Positions 21,400 through 30,598 of a stretch of DNA of 64,000 bases are shown here, piece by piece. Origin of the DNA: Methanolinea sp. (GTDB taxonomy: Archaea > Halobacteriota > Methanomicrobia > Methanomicrobiales > Methanospirillaceae); the NCBI GenBank assembly GCA_030055515.1, contig JASFYI010000001.1, positions 682,001 through 746,000 of the forward strand. Direction: 5' to 3'. The notes below the pieces were generated by a model. The model did no database searches. It saw nothing but the letters and a program-made list of their open reading frames with translations, and was not told the origin of the DNA. Positions within the stretch are counted from its first letter, which is position 1. Each line of letters starts with the position of its first letter. Position numbers and translations under genes: made by a program.

Positions 21400-22976
21400 G
21401 GTTCGACCCGGCCGCCTGGAAGGCGAGGTCCCGCGAGAACTTCGAGCGGGCGTGGCACGATGGCCCGTCGGTCCTCACGCCGCCGCGCGAGAGAGAGACG
21501 TATCCAAGGCTCCGGTACCCCGACCCGCGTCCCCACCCCGTCTTCGAGATGGTCCACCGCCTCCGCGAGACGTACCTCCGCCTCGGTTTCGCAGAGACCT
21601 GCAACCCCATCATCGTCGAGGAACAGGACGTGTTCAGGCAGTTCGGGCCGGAGGCGAGGGCGGTCCTCGACAGGGTCTTCTACCTCGGGGGGCTCGACCG
21701 GCCCAACCAGGGGATTGGGAAGGAGGAACTGGAGGGTATCGCGGCCATCACGGGCAGGCCCGTCTCCCCGGGAGAGGAGGAGCGGCTCCGGCAGATCCTC
21801 CAGGACTACAAGAGGTCGGCCATCGACGGGGACGAGCTCGTCCACGCGACCTCTGAAGCCCTCGGGATCGACGACGGGCTCACGGTGGAGATCTACGAGA
21901 AGGTCTTCTCGGCGTTCCGGGACCTCTCCCCCCGTGCCTCTCGCTCCACGCTGCGCAGCCACATGACGAGCGGGTGGTTCCTCACGCTCGCCGCACTCTG
22001 GGAGCGGAGTCCCCTCCCCCTCCGGCTCTTCTCCGTGGACCGGTGCTTCCGGCGCGAGCAGGAGGAGGGGCCTACGCGCCTCGTGAGCTACCACTCCGCC
22101 TCCTGCGTGGTCGCAGGCGAGGATGTCACGAACGAGGAGGGGAAGGCCGTCTCGGAGTCGCTCCTCTCCGCGTTCGGATTCACGGAATTCCGGTTCCGCC
22201 CCGACGAGAAAAGGTCGAAGTACTACATGCCCGGGACGCAGACAGAGGTCTACGCCCGCCACCCGGTCCACGGCTGGGTCGAGGTGGCCACCTTCGGGAT
22301 GTACTCCCCGTCCGCGCTCGGGGAGTACGGGATCGGCGTTCCCGTGATGAACCTCGGGCTCGGCGTGGAGCGGCTCGCGATGATCGTGACCGGCGCGGGG
22401 GACATGCGCGCCCTCGTGTACCCCCAGTTCCACCCCCGGCCCCTCACCGACCTCGAGATTGCACGCGGCGTCACAGTCCGGAGCGAGCCTGCGACCGTCG
22501 AGGGGAGGATGCTCGCGCGCGCGATCGCCCGCACCGCGAGGGAGCATGCGGCGGAGACGGGGCCCTGCTCGTTCCTCGCCTACGAGGGGACACTCTCCGG
22601 CGAAAGGGTCCGCGTCTGGGTCGAGGAGCAGGAGGAGGGGGCAAAGCTCCTCGGCCCCGCGTGCGAAAACGAGGTCTTCGTGTGGGACGGGTCGGTCCTC
22701 GGCGTCCCGGACACGCCGCAGTGGGCAAGGGTCCGGTCAGAGGGAGTCCCCTGCGGGATCTCATACCTCAGGGCAGTAAGCCTCCTCGCCGCGGCCCGCA
22801 TCGAGGAGGCGGCCGCCTGCGGGAGACCCACGCACGTGCAGGTGAAGGTCGCAAAGCTCCCTAGCGACGTCAACCTCCGCATCGCGGACCACGTGATGCG
22901 GGACATCACCGACAGGAAGAAGAAGGTCGACGTCCGCGGGCCGGTCTTCTTCGCGGCGAGGTCAGAGATCGCCTGA
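21396..22976 (+). CDS. sepS: O-phosphoseryl-tRNA(Cys) synthetase (SepRS)
   Basis: Class II synthetase that attaches O-phosphoserine to tRNA-Cys; SepCysS (not in the window) then converts it to Cys-tRNA. It has 526 residues from the ATG at 21396. Motif 2 is [22 protein letters not shown] and motif 3 is GLGVERLAM. The [12 protein letters not shown] block is characteristic of SepRS. Presence of SepRS is largely limited to methanogens and relatives. Translationally coupled to twy1. Confidence 0.96.
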
Positions 22977-23279: not shown

Positions 23280-23762
23280 GTGATGCAGATCCGGATCGTC
23301 GCGGTCGGGCGCGCGAGGGAGGGGTACATCCGGGAAGGGATGCGGGAATACTGCGCGAGGATCGCGCCGTACCATAGAATCGAGCTCATCGACGTGCAGG
23401 AGGAGAAGGTCCCACCCCGGCTGGGAGAGAGGGAGAGGGAGTCTCTCCTCGCGAGGGAAGGGGAGAGGATCCTCGCCGCCGCGGGCGGGACGGGAATCCT
23501 CGTCGCGTGCGCGGTGGACGGCGCGCAGTGGAGCAGCGAGGAATTCGCATATCGCCTGAAGAGCTGGGAGATCTCCGGCCAGCCGCGGGTCACCTTCGCC
23601 ATCGGGGGACCCCTCGGCCTTGCCCCGTCCGTCCTCTCGTGGGCAAACGAGAGGCTTTCGCTCTCGCGGATGACGTTCCCCCACGAGCTCGTGCGCCTCG
23701 TCCTCCTCGAGCAGATCTACAGGGCCTGCCGGATCAACAGCGGCGAGGCATACCACAGGTGA
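23280..23762 (+). CDS. rlmH: RlmH-type rRNA methyltransferase (SPOUT)
   Basis: Member of the RlmH (COG1576) family, which in bacteria methylates pseudouridine 1915 of 23S rRNA at N3. It has 160 residues. The SAM knot motifs are FAIGGPLGL and the C-terminal LSRMTFPHELVRLVLLEQIYRACRI with a NSGEAYHR tail, very close to the bacterial enzyme. GTG at 23280 and ATG at 23283 are both possible starts. Archaeal members are patchy, so an ancient transfer is possible. Confidence 0.94.
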   Translation: MMQIRIVAVGRAREGYIREGMREYCARIAPYHRIELIDVQEEKVPPRLGERERESLLAREGERILAAAGGTGILVACAVDGAQWSSEEFAYRLKSWEISGQPRVTFAIGGPLGLAPSVLSWANERLSLSRMTFPHELVRLVLLEQIYRACRINSGEAYHR

Positions 23763-23766
23763 GGGA

Positions 23767-24894
23767 TCACGGGATTATCTCGCAGCCGTTGTAGCGCGTG
23801 TGGGAAAAGTCCGTTATCTTTACGAGTCCCTTCCTGATGCATTCCCTCACGCGGGGCAGCACGCCCGAGAGGCTCGCGTGGAGGTTCTCGACGGTCCGGC
23901 AGACGGCCCTCCGCATCCCGTCCGGCCACGGCCGCACGACCTGCGCGTAGAGGCACCTCCCCCCGCAGAACCCGAGGATCGGGCAGGCCCGGCACTCCGA
24001 GTCGACCTCCACGCGGGGGAGGGTGCACGGGTCGGACGTGGCGACGTGCCCGACGTAGTATCCCTTCATCCCCACCATCACGGGGCAGGGGCCGATGTGC
24101 CCGTCCGTCATGATGGTGTAGTTGGCATGGCCCGCACCGCACCGGAGGGCACTCTCCCGGCCCGAGAGGAGGTCCTCCATTGTCTGGAGGAAGGGGTACC
24201 AGCGACGGACGCTCCCGCCCTCCTCCATGCACGAGACCCAGTCGTCCACGAGCCGCCGTATCCCCGGGTTATAGCTCTCTTCCGCCCACTCGCAGAACCT
24301 CCGTGCCGCCGCGTCGCCGGAGAACTCCGCGTCGAGCTGCCAGTGGATCGACCAGAAGGGGATGGAGGGGTTCTCCGCGAGTGCCCACACCGCCTCGTGG
24401 ATGTCCGTATCCTCTCCCACGGTCATCCGCGCGATGACCTCTCCCCGGAACCCCCCCCGCACGAGTTCCCCGAGGTTCTCCATGACCCGCCGGTACGTCC
24501 CCTCCCCCCTGTGGCTGTCGGTGAGCTCCTCTGTCCCGTCCAGCGAGACGAGGATTGTCTCGAACCTGTTGCGGTACGCGGGCGGGAGGTCTGCGAGGAG
24601 GAGCCCGTTTGTCTGGACCATGAACCTCCGGACCGGGGCGTTGTCCATGATCTCCATGACGAGGGGGATCCGGAGGAGGGGCTCCCCGCCGTAGAAGGTC
24701 AGGCATGCATCCCGGTCCCTCCCGAGGAAGGAGTAGAGGTCCTGCAGGTCGACCGAGAGATCCGGGGGGAGATCGGTGTCGATCTCGACGTCCCGCCCGC
24801 ATGCCATGTCCGAGACCCCGGCGTGGATCCTCCCCCGGCAGTAGCTGCAGCACAGGTTGCAGTCGTCGGTGAGGATGAGGTGAAAGAAGGTCAT
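23767..24894 (-). CDS. Radical SAM/SPASM peptide-maturase-like enzyme
   Basis: A 375-residue radical SAM protein. The cluster motif is C12-x3-C16-x2-C19 (CNLCCSYC), and TFYGGEPLL is the GGE motif. The C-terminal Cys-rich SPASM region includes CGAGHANYTIMTDGHIGPCPV and CRACPILGFCGGRC, so two auxiliary clusters are likely. From memory it resembles the archaeal AF1577-type (TIGR04084) enzymes thought to modify peptides. The start at 24894 begins directly with the conserved FFHLILTDDCN; an upstream extension to 24981 is not family-like. It follows the TPR gene by 17 bases on the same strand. No Cys-rich precursor peptide was found nearby. The substrate is unknown. Confidence 0.88.
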   Translation of the reverse strand: MTFFHLILTDDCNLCCSYCRGRIHAGVSDMACGRDVEIDTDLPPDLSVDLQDLYSFLGRDRDACLTFYGGEPLLRIPLVMEIMDNAPVRRFMVQTNGLLLADLPPAYRNRFETILVSLDGTEELTDSHRGEGTYRRVMENLGELVRGGFRGEVIARMTVGEDTDIHEAVWALAENPSIPFWSIHWQLDAEFSGDAAARRFCEWAEESYNPGIRRLVDDWVSCMEEGGSVRRWYPFLQTMEDLLSGRESALRCGAGHANYTIMTDGHIGPCPVMVGMKGYYVGHVATSDPCTLPRVEVDSECRACPILGFCGGRCLYAQVVRPWPDGMRRAVCRTVENLHASLSGVLPRVRECIRKGLVKITDFSHTRYNGCEIIP

Positions 24895-24911
24895 CTTCCC
24901 ACGGGGAGGTG

Positions 24912-25787
24912 TCAATCGGTCGGGAAATCCCGGCGTCGCGGGCGTTGCGCCCACGAACGCGAGAATACCCCCCACGCGCACGCGGCGAGGGGGAGGAGGG
25001 AGGGGAGGGGTGTCGTCTGTTTCCTCGTCGGTTTCGTCTCGGGGACGACGGGGGTCTGGAGGATCTCGGGCGAGCTCCTTCCCCGGAGGAGCGTCTCGTT
25101 CACCCGCTGGAGCCCGGCGATCGCCCGCCCCATCTTCGGGTTCACCGCGATGGCCTCCCCGTACGCGTCGATGGCCTCCTGGTAACGGCCGAGCCTCGCG
25201 AGGGCGTCCCCCATCGTGGCCCAGAGGAGCGCGTTGTACTTCGCCTCGTTCGGGTTGCGCCGCAGCTCCCTCTCCGCGAGCCGGATGACCTCCGTGTAGA
25301 TCTCCATCGCCTTCTCGGGCTTCCCCATCTTCTGGAGACAGACGCCCTTCTCGTAGAGCGTGTAGAAGTCGTTCGCGTTGATGGCGAGCGCCCTGTCGTA
25401 CGCCTCGATTGCCGCCTGGTACTTCTCCTGGACCTGGAGCGCGTCGCCCTTGTTCTTCCAGGCAATCGTGTAGTACGGGTCGATTTCGAGTGCCCTCTGG
25501 AACGATTCAACCGCGTCGGGGAACCTTCCGACCTTCATCTGGGCGATCCCGAACCTGTTCCAGATCTGGCTGCTGTAGGGGTCGAGGTCGAGTGCTTCCT
25601 CGTAGAGGTCGAGCGCCTCCAGGAACTGCCCCTGGACCACAAGGTCGTCTGCCCTCCTCGCGAGGTTCTGTGCCTTCTCCGCGGGCGTATCGGCAGCTGC
25701 CGGAGATGCCGACAGGACGAGGATGGCGAGGCACGCGAAGATGCACGCGAGCCTCCCACCTCCCAGGGAGAACACACCACCCTCCAT
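24912..25787 (-). CDS. Exported TPR-repeat protein
   Basis: A 291-residue protein with an N-terminal signal peptide (hydrophobic LACIFACLAILVLSASPAAA), at least four tetratricopeptide repeats across residues 50-230 (patterns such as WNRFGIAQMKVGRFPDAVESF and AWKNKGDALQVQEKYQAAIEAY), and a Pro/Thr-rich tail followed by a short hydrophobic C-terminal stretch with Arg residues. That layout suggests a membrane-anchored scaffold outside the cell membrane. The ATG at 25787 is preferred over one at 25820, because the latter lies within the promoter. Its 3' end is 17 bases from the radical SAM gene, so they are probably co-transcribed. Confidence 0.87.
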   Translation of the reverse strand: MEGGVFSLGGGRLACIFACLAILVLSASPAAADTPAEKAQNLARRADDLVVQGQFLEALDLYEEALDLDPYSSQIWNRFGIAQMKVGRFPDAVESFQRALEIDPYYTIAWKNKGDALQVQEKYQAAIEAYDRALAINANDFYTLYEKGVCLQKMGKPEKAMEIYTEVIRLAERELRRNPNEAKYNALLWATMGDALARLGRYQEAIDAYGEAIAVNPKMGRAIAGLQRVNETLLRGRSSPEILQTPVVPETKPTRKQTTPLPSLLPLAACAWGVFSRSWAQRPRRRDFPTD

Positions 25788-25815: not shown

Positions 25816-25826
25816 AGCATATAATG
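25816..25826 (-). promoter_or_regulatory. TATA box before the TPR/radical SAM gene pair
   Basis: The minus strand reads CATTATATGCT. It places the transcript start near 25796, only about 10 bases before the ATG at 25787, which supports that start. Confidence 0.5.
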
Positions 25827-26772: not shown

Positions 26773-27549
26773 GTGGATGTGAAAAAGGTACTCCTTGTCT
26801 CCATCCTCCTGTCGGCGATCGTCGTGGTCGCCGTTGCGGGGAACGCGGGCGGACCCGGCGGGAAGGCGGGGCAGCAGGTCCAGAAACAGGCTCAGGAACA
26901 GGCTCAGGTACAGGATAGGCCGCAGGAACAGTCCCAACAACAGAACATTGACAAGGTCCAGAGCCAATCAAAAGCGCAGTTGAACGCCTCGGGGGACCGG
27001 ATCCGGGAGGAAGAACGTCTCCGGAACCAGACGAGGGCATTGAGGGGCGCCCAGCTCCACAAGCAGATTCAGGATCGCAAGCAGGAACAGGATCGCCTGC
27101 ACGCGACCTTGCCTCCGGAGCAGCAACGCGTCCACTCGCGTTACAGCAACGTGAGTGCCTTTGTCCACACTCTTCTCGACGAGGGACAGGCCCGGGAGAT
27201 GCTGGGCGGGATAGGTCCGCAGGTCTCGGCCTTTGCCCGCGAATTCAACAATTCCCTCCAGGCCCAGGTCAGGGCAGAAGAGCGGATCGAGACGCGGAAT
27301 ATGTTCGTCCGCTTCCTCGCCGGGGGAGACGAGGAGGCTGCGAGGTTGCTCGCGCAGGAGGCTGTCCGCAACCAGGAACGGATCCAGCAGGCACGCGAGC
27401 TCATTGCACAGTGCGAGGACTGCGATCCCGAGGTCCGTGAGATACTCCAGGAGCAGTTCCGGGAGATGGAGCAGCAGCAGGCCCGGATCCAGCAGCTTGC
27501 CCAGAGGGAGAGGCAAGACAAGGGGATTTTCGGCTGGTTGTGGAAATAA
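26773..27549 (+). CDS. Exported Gln/Glu-rich coiled-coil protein
   Basis: A 258-residue protein with an N-terminal hydrophobic segment (KKVLLVSILLSAIVVVAVA) that is a signal peptide or anchor. A Gln-rich repeat (K/E-Q-A-Q-E-Q pattern, residues 30-60) and long charged helices to the end follow. There is one Cys pair (CEDC). Start is GTG at 26773, eight bases after GGGAGG. The C-terminus ends GIFGWLWK. I do not recognise a named family; similar secreted coiled-coil proteins occur in Methanomicrobiales. It is isolated between the DUF4405-like gene and the tRNA-associated element. Confidence 0.72.
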   Translation: MDVKKVLLVSILLSAIVVVAVAGNAGGPGGKAGQQVQKQAQEQAQVQDRPQEQSQQQNIDKVQSQSKAQLNASGDRIREEERLRNQTRALRGAQLHKQIQDRKQEQDRLHATLPPEQQRVHSRYSNVSAFVHTLLDEGQAREMLGGIGPQVSAFAREFNNSLQAQVRAEERIETRNMFVRFLAGGDEEAARLLAQEAVRNQERIQQARELIAQCEDCDPEVREILQEQFREMEQQQARIQQLAQRERQDKGIFGWLWK

Positions 27550-27719: not shown

Positions 27720-27903
27720 TTCGCGCTCCCCGCAACGCCGCCTCATTTCTCGCGCAAAGCAGCGTCACGAATGACCAGCGATTCCTAAATGCTCTCATCA
27801 CGAGTGTCAGTAGCACGATTCAGCCTGCACACTTCACGCTTTCTTCAGAAGAAAGTGGGCTCGAGGAGATTCGAACTCCTGACCTCCGCTGTGTGAAGGC
27901 GAG
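27720..27903. repeat. attL-like direct repeat with 3' half of tRNA-Val
   Basis: 27778-27903 is a close direct repeat of 30373-30496, with weaker similarity back to about 27720. The last 48 bases (27856-27903) equal the 3' half of tRNA-Val(CAC), from the discriminator base through the anticodon loop, and then similarity stops. A perfect palindrome, CTTTCTTC-A-GAAGAAAG (27839-27855), sits at the tRNA 3' end. This is the structure left when an element integrates at a tRNA 3' end and restores the gene on the other side. Confidence 0.82.
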
Positions 27904-28466: not shown

Positions 28467-28658
28467 ATGACCAGCATCGAAACTGACGTCAAGGAGATCA
28501 AAGAAAGCATCAGAGCGCTCGCCGAAAAGATCGAGACTCTCCTTCACGAGAGGGAGACCCTTGCAATGATGAAGCTCTCCGAGCGGTCACTCTCTGCCTT
28601 TCTGGAGGAGGAGCCTGATCTCTACACTGTCAGGGATATCAGGGTTGTGTACCGATGA
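28467..28658 (+). CDS. Small antitoxin-like protein
   Basis: A 63-residue acidic, mostly helical protein. Its first half is a short coiled coil (VKEIKESIRALAEKIETLL) and its C-terminal half could wrap a toxin. It overlaps the MazF/PemK-type gene by 4 bases (ATGA), the usual antitoxin-toxin arrangement. There is no clear DNA-binding fold. The antitoxin role is inferred from position. Confidence 0.65.
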   Translation: MTSIETDVKEIKESIRALAEKIETLLHERETLAMMKLSERSLSAFLEEEPDLYTVRDIRVVYR

Positions 28659-28984
28659 AGGGGAAGATCGTTCTGATACCGTTTCCCTTCACCGATTTCA
28701 CCGCGACCAAACTTCGACCAGCGCTCGTCCTCCACGAGGGGGATCGCGATGTTGTTGTCGCCTTTATTTCGTCAAAAACTCACGAGAGAACTGGTTTATC
28801 CGGCATTATAATAAACTCCTCTCACGCAGGTTTTTCGAGAACAGGCCTCAAGGTCGATTCTGTGATCAGATTGGATAAGATTGCAACGATTCTGAAAGAC
28901 CTGATAATCGGTGAGATCGGAGAACTGGATGATGACCTTAAAGCAGAAGTCAATGCAAAAGTCGTTGCACTTTTCAGACTCTGA
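28655..28984 (+). CDS. MazF/PemK-like toxin
   Basis: A 109-residue protein beginning KGKIVLIPFPFTDFTATKLRPALVL, the conserved first strands of PemK/MazF-type endoribonucleases, including the Pro-rich loop and the Arg-Pro-Ala motif. VVAFISSK follows as the usual next strand. In the family these cut mRNA and are held in check by the upstream partner. The DNA is less GC-rich than the core genome and lies within the tRNA-Val element. RNase activity is not proven. Confidence 0.8.
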   Translation: MKGKIVLIPFPFTDFTATKLRPALVLHEGDRDVVVAFISSKTHERTGLSGIIINSSHAGFSRTGLKVDSVIRLDKIATILKDLIIGEIGELDDDLKAEVNAKVVALFRL

Positions 28985-30372: not shown

Positions 30373-30496
30373 GCGTTTCCTAAATGCTCTCATCATGAAT
30401 GTCAATAGCACGATTCAGCCTGCACACTTCACGCTTTCTTCAGAAGAAGGTGGGCTCGAGGAGATTCGAACTCCTGACCTCCGCCGTGTGAAGGCG
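30373..30496. repeat. attR-like direct repeat overlapping intact tRNA-Val
   Basis: This is the partner of 27778-27903: about 75 bases of tRNA 3' flank plus the 3' half of tRNA-Val, with scattered mismatches that show the two copies have been drifting for some time. Confidence 0.8.
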
Positions 30497-30524
30497 ACGT
30501 CATAGCCAGCTAGACCACGAGCCC
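30451..30524 (-). tRNA. tRNA-Val(CAC)
   Basis: The 74-base cloverleaf is complete: acceptor GGGCTCG/CGAGCCC, anticodon stem TCGCC/GGCGG with loop TTCACAC, T arm AGGAG-TTCGAAT-CTCCT, and discriminator A. CCA is not encoded. It lies 3 bases after tRNA-Gly on the same strand. Its 3' half is duplicated at 27856-27903. Confidence 0.97.
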
Positions 30525-30527
30525 CAG

Positions 30528-30598
30528 TGCATCGACCGGGAATCGAACCCGGGCTATAGGCTTGGAAGGCCTAAGTCATGCCACTAGACCATCGATGC
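30528..30598 (-). tRNA. tRNA-Gly(TCC)
   Basis: The 71-base cloverleaf has acceptor GCATCGA/TCGATGC, anticodon stem TAGGC/GCCTA with loop CTTCCAA, and T arm CCGGG-TTCGATT-CCCGG. It is first in a two-tRNA transcript with tRNA-Val. Confidence 0.97.

Follow-up and report, generated by a model that had tools for sequence, protein, structure and literature searches.

The gene at 23767..24894 (minus strand) of the window analysed here, a stretch of 64,000 nucleotides (nt) from a Methanolinea sp. genome (GenBank assembly GCA_030055515.1, contig JASFYI010000001.1, positions 682,001 to 746,000), encodes a radical S-adenosylmethionine (SAM)/SPASM enzyme of 375 amino acids (aa), counted from its ATG, which belongs to the archaeal family TIGR04084 (AF0577) and follows directly a gene for an exported-looking tetratricopeptide repeat (TPR) protein. 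The enzyme is probably a stand-alone maturase resembling anSME and CteB that acts on a protein or peptide encoded elsewhere, and the TPR protein is probably not its substrate. A SPASM enzyme that modifies a peptide or protein whose gene lies elsewhere had been one proposal of the original prediction, made from this DNA alone, and it is still the best reading. The pairing of the two genes is real but lineage-bound, and it is weak evidence of function; the near-constant last four residues of the enzyme are a better clue to its working.

Family, cysteines and C-terminal tail of the enzyme

The enzyme matches the NCBIfam model TIGR04084 (rSAM_AF0577) over residues 7-375 with 270.3 bits (cut-off 225), and the radical SAM domain (PF04055) and the SPASM model TIGR04085 (36.3 bits, cut-off 27) are also found in it. 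TIGR04084 is a named, uncharacterised archaeal radical SAM family of which the enzyme is an ordinary member, its closest named relatives being records of Methanolinea and other Methanoregulaceae; no paper on TIGR04084 was found in the open-access literature, and among the papers listed under AF0577 or Mhun_1560 none concerned the gene by its title. Matches at E <= 0.001 occur in 145 of 150 genomes of the methanogen order Methanomicrobiales, and a hand tally from the table gives 137 genomes with a strong match (best E 5.4e-37 or better), 8 with only a weak one and 5 with none; some of the 137 carry broken frames (e.g., G019, G108, G123 and G135). Among 392 genomes of the phylum some match is present in 375 and the family cut-off is passed in 132, with five family codes outside the order represented (f9, f14, f25, f30 and f33), and of 14 control genomes one also exceeds the cut-off. 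Since the family is carried by most of the genomes searched in the order and by families outside it, the enzyme is very likely of general use.

The cysteines were compared among 81 members, picked by the analyst as full-length matches. The radical SAM motif C12-x3-C16-x2-C19 (24838..24861, minus strand) is invariant in all of them. The SPASM cysteines of the window enzyme (23899..24141, minus strand) are spaced as C252-x12-G265-x4-C270, C301-x2-C304-x5-C310-x3-C314 and C332, in agreement with the motif CX9-15GX4C-gap-CX2CX5CX3C-gap-C (PMC6231123, in extract). Five of them (C252, C270, C304, C310 and C314) are kept in 81/81 members, C301 in 80 and C332 in 72, so that the full set of seven is present in 71/81 and a single position is changed in the other 10. 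For AlbA and other sactisynthases, the same count of seven has prompted discussion of an auxiliary cluster with a free site or with a ligand other than cysteine (PMC6231123, in extract).

The structure of the enzyme was predicted from 46 sequences, all of the order and hence a shallow alignment, with a mean pLDDT (predicted local distance difference test) of 83.6. The best fold match of the model is anSMEcpe (4k36_A; Z 27.0, root-mean-square deviation 3.3, 331 residues aligned, nearly the full length), followed by CteB (5wgg_A, Z 25.9) and ChlB (9gmc_A, Z 23.6), rows within 1 Z being taken as tied; among the matches listed, absence from which excludes nothing, no other family alters the reading. 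By sequence, the top match among solved structures is CteB (5wgg, E 4.1e-12). In the model the first strand of the barrel comes at the very N-terminus, and no leader-binding domain is predicted ahead of it. Like anSME, the enzyme would bind its substrate directly in the barrel; SAM would be cut at the cluster held by C12, C16 and C19, a hydrogen atom would then be taken from a substrate side chain, and the electron would be passed on through the SPASM clusters. Because seven cysteines serve two clusters, one auxiliary site, probably on auxiliary cluster I (Aux I), would be open or otherwise filled, either by the substrate or by the C-terminal residues Glu372-Ile-Ile-Pro375 of the enzyme itself.

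These residues are nearly invariant. The window enzyme ends in N-G-C-E-I-I-P (23770..23790, minus strand) with the stop codon directly after it, and the C-terminus is exactly E-I/V-I-P in 81/81 members (EIIP in 79, EVIP in two). The same end is found in 47 of 48 named loci, the remaining one running off its contig, and in 29/30 loci drawn from the search of the phylum, both sets overlapping the 81. At positions 369-375 the most frequent residue accounts on average for 0.92 of the sequences, vs. 0.48 at positions 333-366, and of the three matches to an EIIP end in the window's own genome the enzyme gene alone has a true stop. That the C-terminus is free and almost never varies suggests that the tail has a function. 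On this conservation, it is possible, if doubtful, that the Glu-Ile-Ile-Pro-COOH tail enters the enzyme's own active site, where it may fill the open Aux I site or position the substrate. If it does, TIGR04084 would be a conserved archaeal protein-modifying SPASM enzyme whose own C-terminal tail acts as its gate. The tail also offers a direct experimental handle on the enzyme, with four residues to mutate or cap. No description of it was met in the literature on the enzyme family, where the motif itself was not searched for.

The TPR gene and inherited gene order

The TPR gene (24912..25787, minus strand) codes for an N-terminal signal-like segment, TPR repeats, a short C-terminal hydrophobic segment and a basic tail, the signal and membrane segments being assigned by eye. 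Its stop is separated from the enzyme start by 17 nt (24895..24911). Of two in-frame ATGs, at 25820 and 25787, the second is the better start because the one at 25820, which would give a longer protein, sits within a TATA-like box, ATTATATG (25825-25818, minus strand), that lies 31-38 nt upstream of 25787. This box was read by eye without statistics, as were TATA-like stretches that several relatives have 5' of their TPR gene. The original prediction of a radical SAM/SPASM gene and an exported TPR gene on one strand, 17 bases apart and behind a TATA box, was thus confirmed by the profile matches and the sequence, with export and the TATA box judged by eye.

A TPR ortholog (at least 200 bits) occurs in 15 of the 150 genomes of the order, the next-best genome scoring 113 bits, and all 15 orthologs, spread over five Methanoregulaceae genera, are encoded immediately 5' of the enzyme gene in the same orientation, a pairing beyond chance. 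The gap is of ~16-31 nt in 12 of these pairs and ~61-76 nt in three. A strong enzyme match without a TPR ortholog is present in 122 genomes of the order (137 minus 15). To place the pair in its neighbourhood, the loci of 60 relatives and the window were read, chosen to span families and genera and including all 15 TPR-linked loci and 46 others; one gene cluster, c2, is an apparent antisense shadow of gene c10 and was not used. In none of the 46 does a member of the TPR cluster precede the enzyme. An unlinked TPR candidate in G073 (L047) was rejected as an ortholog, being of lipobox type, with more repeats and no higher score than 130 bits against the linked proteins, which match one another with at least 184 bits.

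The TPR gene is part of a larger syntenic block. In the window the enzyme gene converges with rlmH (23S rRNA methyltransferase; 23280..23762, plus strand), beyond which lie sepS (O-phosphoserine-tRNA ligase; 21426..22976, plus strand) and then TYW1, all assigned by profile matches, and a tRNA-Val(cac)/tRNA-Gly(tcc) pair was detected at 30449..30598 (minus strand). In the stretch read, rlmH and sepS are each found in 14/15 TPR-linked loci vs. 0/46 others, the only linked locus without them (L075) being at the end of its contig, and the tRNA pair is found in 15/15 vs. 3/46. A further block gene, which we take to be Thi4-like, is present in 13 of the 15 linked loci. Eight TPR-less genomes of the same family were searched for rlmH, which was located elsewhere in six and not found in two. 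The block is present in the linked loci and nearly absent from the others, and was therefore inherited as a whole.

In a tree of 81 enzymes the TPR-linked members form one group of 14 (Shimodaira-Hasegawa-like approximate likelihood ratio test 89, not starred), with the enzyme of L075 apart from it on weak branches (two changes). Another genus of the same family, represented by G059 (L077), keeps the enzyme and, 5' of it, part of the block, namely three genes of its left part (c9, c7 and c14) and the tRNA pair, and lacks the TPR gene. The adjacency of the TPR gene and the enzyme thus fits inherited gene order, since conservation across these 15 loci is similar for rlmH, sepS and the tRNA pair, and it is mostly that. 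For the same reason the co-occurrence of the two genes in relatives, the lack of which was to have spoken against the original prediction and which was found in all 15 genomes with the TPR ortholog, does not discriminate between the readings. More generally, a conserved pairing in one clade is weak functional evidence when the whole neighbourhood is syntenic.

This bears on two explanations that give the TPR protein a part in the chemistry. It might be modified by the enzyme before export, as exported sulfatases are by anSME, in this Methanoregulaceae branch only; the unbroken same-strand adjacency, the gap of at most ~31 nt in 12 of the 15 pairs and anSME as the closest solved fold speak for this, but strong enzyme matches without a TPR ortholog in 122 genomes of the order, the synteny of the whole block and G059, with enzyme and part of the block but no TPR gene, make it improbable. 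Nor do the 15 TPR orthologs offer an invariant cysteine: none of their 42 invariant positions is one, and each protein has from 0 to 6 cysteines. As a substrate of the family in general the TPR protein, named in the original prediction as a possible substrate, is rejected by this distribution and by the cysteines. Alternatively, the pair might work as a unit on surface proteins, the TPR protein serving as adaptor or chaperone for the real exported substrate of the enzyme. Adjacency unbroken across five genera, while other block genes moved or were separated, is in its favour; the TPR protein, however, is predicted by eye to lie outside the membrane and the enzyme in the cytoplasm, and in most genomes of the order the enzyme manages without it, which makes such a unit very improbable. 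The proposed coupled system for surface-protein modification is partly supported: the adjacency in 15/15 genomes stands, whereas the synteny of the block and an enzyme that usually occurs without the TPR gene speak against the coupling. In one Methanoregulaceae branch the gene of the TPR protein, which would be anchored at the surface, probably shares a transcript with the enzyme gene as a result of joint inheritance of the entire block.

Precursor search and other neighbours

Short of a protein substrate, the enzyme could mature a ribosomally synthesized and post-translationally modified peptide (RiPP) from a tiny gene elsewhere, with a thioether as in PapB, QhpD and CteB. The top rank of CteB among solved structures by sequence is in line with this, as are the NCBIfam models that come next after TIGR04084, namely PapB (85.4 bits), nif11 (78.3) and the QhpD type (69.3). 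These scores, however, are far below the respective cut-offs, and the enzyme falls outside PapB (85.4 of 340 bits), SCIFF (44.9 of 425) and the QhpD type (69.3 of 453). A RiPP recognition element (RRE) was not found either: the enzyme has no N-terminal extension that could hold a fused one, and the PqqD-type RRE (PF05402), the only RRE type searched for, has no match in the window's own genome and is present in one of 13 genomes of the genus.

For a local precursor gene, 274 small open reading frames (ORFs) of 15-110 aa, lying by at most a quarter within a gene and within ~3 kb, were compared among the 15 TPR-linked loci. Matches to another locus were obtained for 51. Overlap with tRNA genes accounts for 31 of these, and each of the remaining 20 has counterparts in no more than two further loci, hence in at most 3/15; many of the 20 are located in the rlmH-sepS interval, on one strand or the other, and resemble conserved non-coding DNA. 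A hidden precursor gene near the enzyme was rejected, since no small ORF of this set outside the tRNA genes occurs in more than 3/15 loci. The original prediction that no Cys-rich precursor is nearby holds for ORFs overlapping genes by no more than a quarter, and its suggestion of a tiny conserved ORF beside the pair found no candidate in this set. Among these mostly intergenic ORFs within ~3 kb, no precursor gene adjoins the maturase in the 15 loci. Given these scores and searches, maturation of a short RiPP is unlikely. Two genomes of the genus, and no others, share a small ORF resembling a membrane protein (64 aa in L064, 89 aa in L067), located ~2 kb 5' of the enzyme gene.

Other neighbours were considered as general partners and rejected as lineage neighbours. 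Among the 61 loci these are a small zinc-ribbon ORF (c45, six loci), a 52-54-aa ORF (c57, five loci) and a gene that we take to be SepCysS-like (Sep-tRNA:Cys-tRNA synthase-like), directly upstream in four; among 20 loci outside the order, a presumably CofE-like gene is directly upstream of the TIGR04084 gene in two loci of one genus (L202 and L205). No neighbour is common to more than five of these 20 loci, three gene clusters being found in five each. The four SepCysS-like genes (L115-L118) come from a single genus of the order, and the TIGR04084 gene either starts directly behind them or overlaps their 3' end; in the window sepS is nearby.

Several points weigh against a stand-alone maturase with a working tail. 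The argument on the auxiliary clusters rests on counting cysteines, broken copies (e.g., G019) were left out of the 81 members, one phylum locus (L132) ends in EIMP, and residues 373-375 of the model have a pLDDT under 50, the tail thus not being confidently placed. The enzyme may also have a small molecule as substrate. As to the TPR gene, its junction with the enzyme is the steadiest of the block (15/15, never interrupted), whereas in L073 and L074 an insertion has come between rlmH and the enzyme, and the unbroken junction could mean coupling in that branch.

Three further features were observed in the window. The 35 bases of the tRNA-Val 3' end at 30450-30484 recur as a direct copy at 27855-27889, ~2.6 kb apart; both copies lie inside a longer near-identical stretch and flank a transposase gene and a PemK/MazF-like toxin gene, an arrangement suggestive of an element that has integrated at a tRNA gene. 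At 28467-28984 a 63-aa ORF with no Pfam match, the possible antitoxin, precedes the PemK/MazF-like ORF (PF02452), and the two are a probable toxin-antitoxin pair. At 26773-27549 a Gln-rich, exported-looking protein of 258 aa is encoded, also with no Pfam match.

Comparison with known systems

With TIGR04084 the enzyme shares nearly its full length, including the C-terminus, and nothing tested sets it apart from the family; the TPR neighbour occurs in a single branch only. The likeness to anSME lies in the closest solved fold over nearly the whole length and in the predicted lack of a leader-binding domain. In anSME four cysteines (255, 261, 276 and 330) bind Aux I and two clusters are fully ligated (PMC6231123, in extract). 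The window enzyme differs in having seven SPASM cysteines for both clusters, which is too few for the full ligation of anSME.

The Aux I cluster of CteB, the solved structure closest in sequence, has an open site (PMC6231123, in extract). From CteB, PapB and QhpD the window enzyme differs by the lack of an RRE, by a precursor gene not found nearby and by scores far under the cut-offs. For the tail, MoaA is one point of comparison, its C-terminal Gly-Gly being essential. QueE provides partial precedent for a C-terminal tail in catalysis (PMC8124187, in extract). Both act on other substrates and with other C-terminal parts, the analogy to the E-I/V-I-P end of TIGR04084 being the invariant free C-terminus only.
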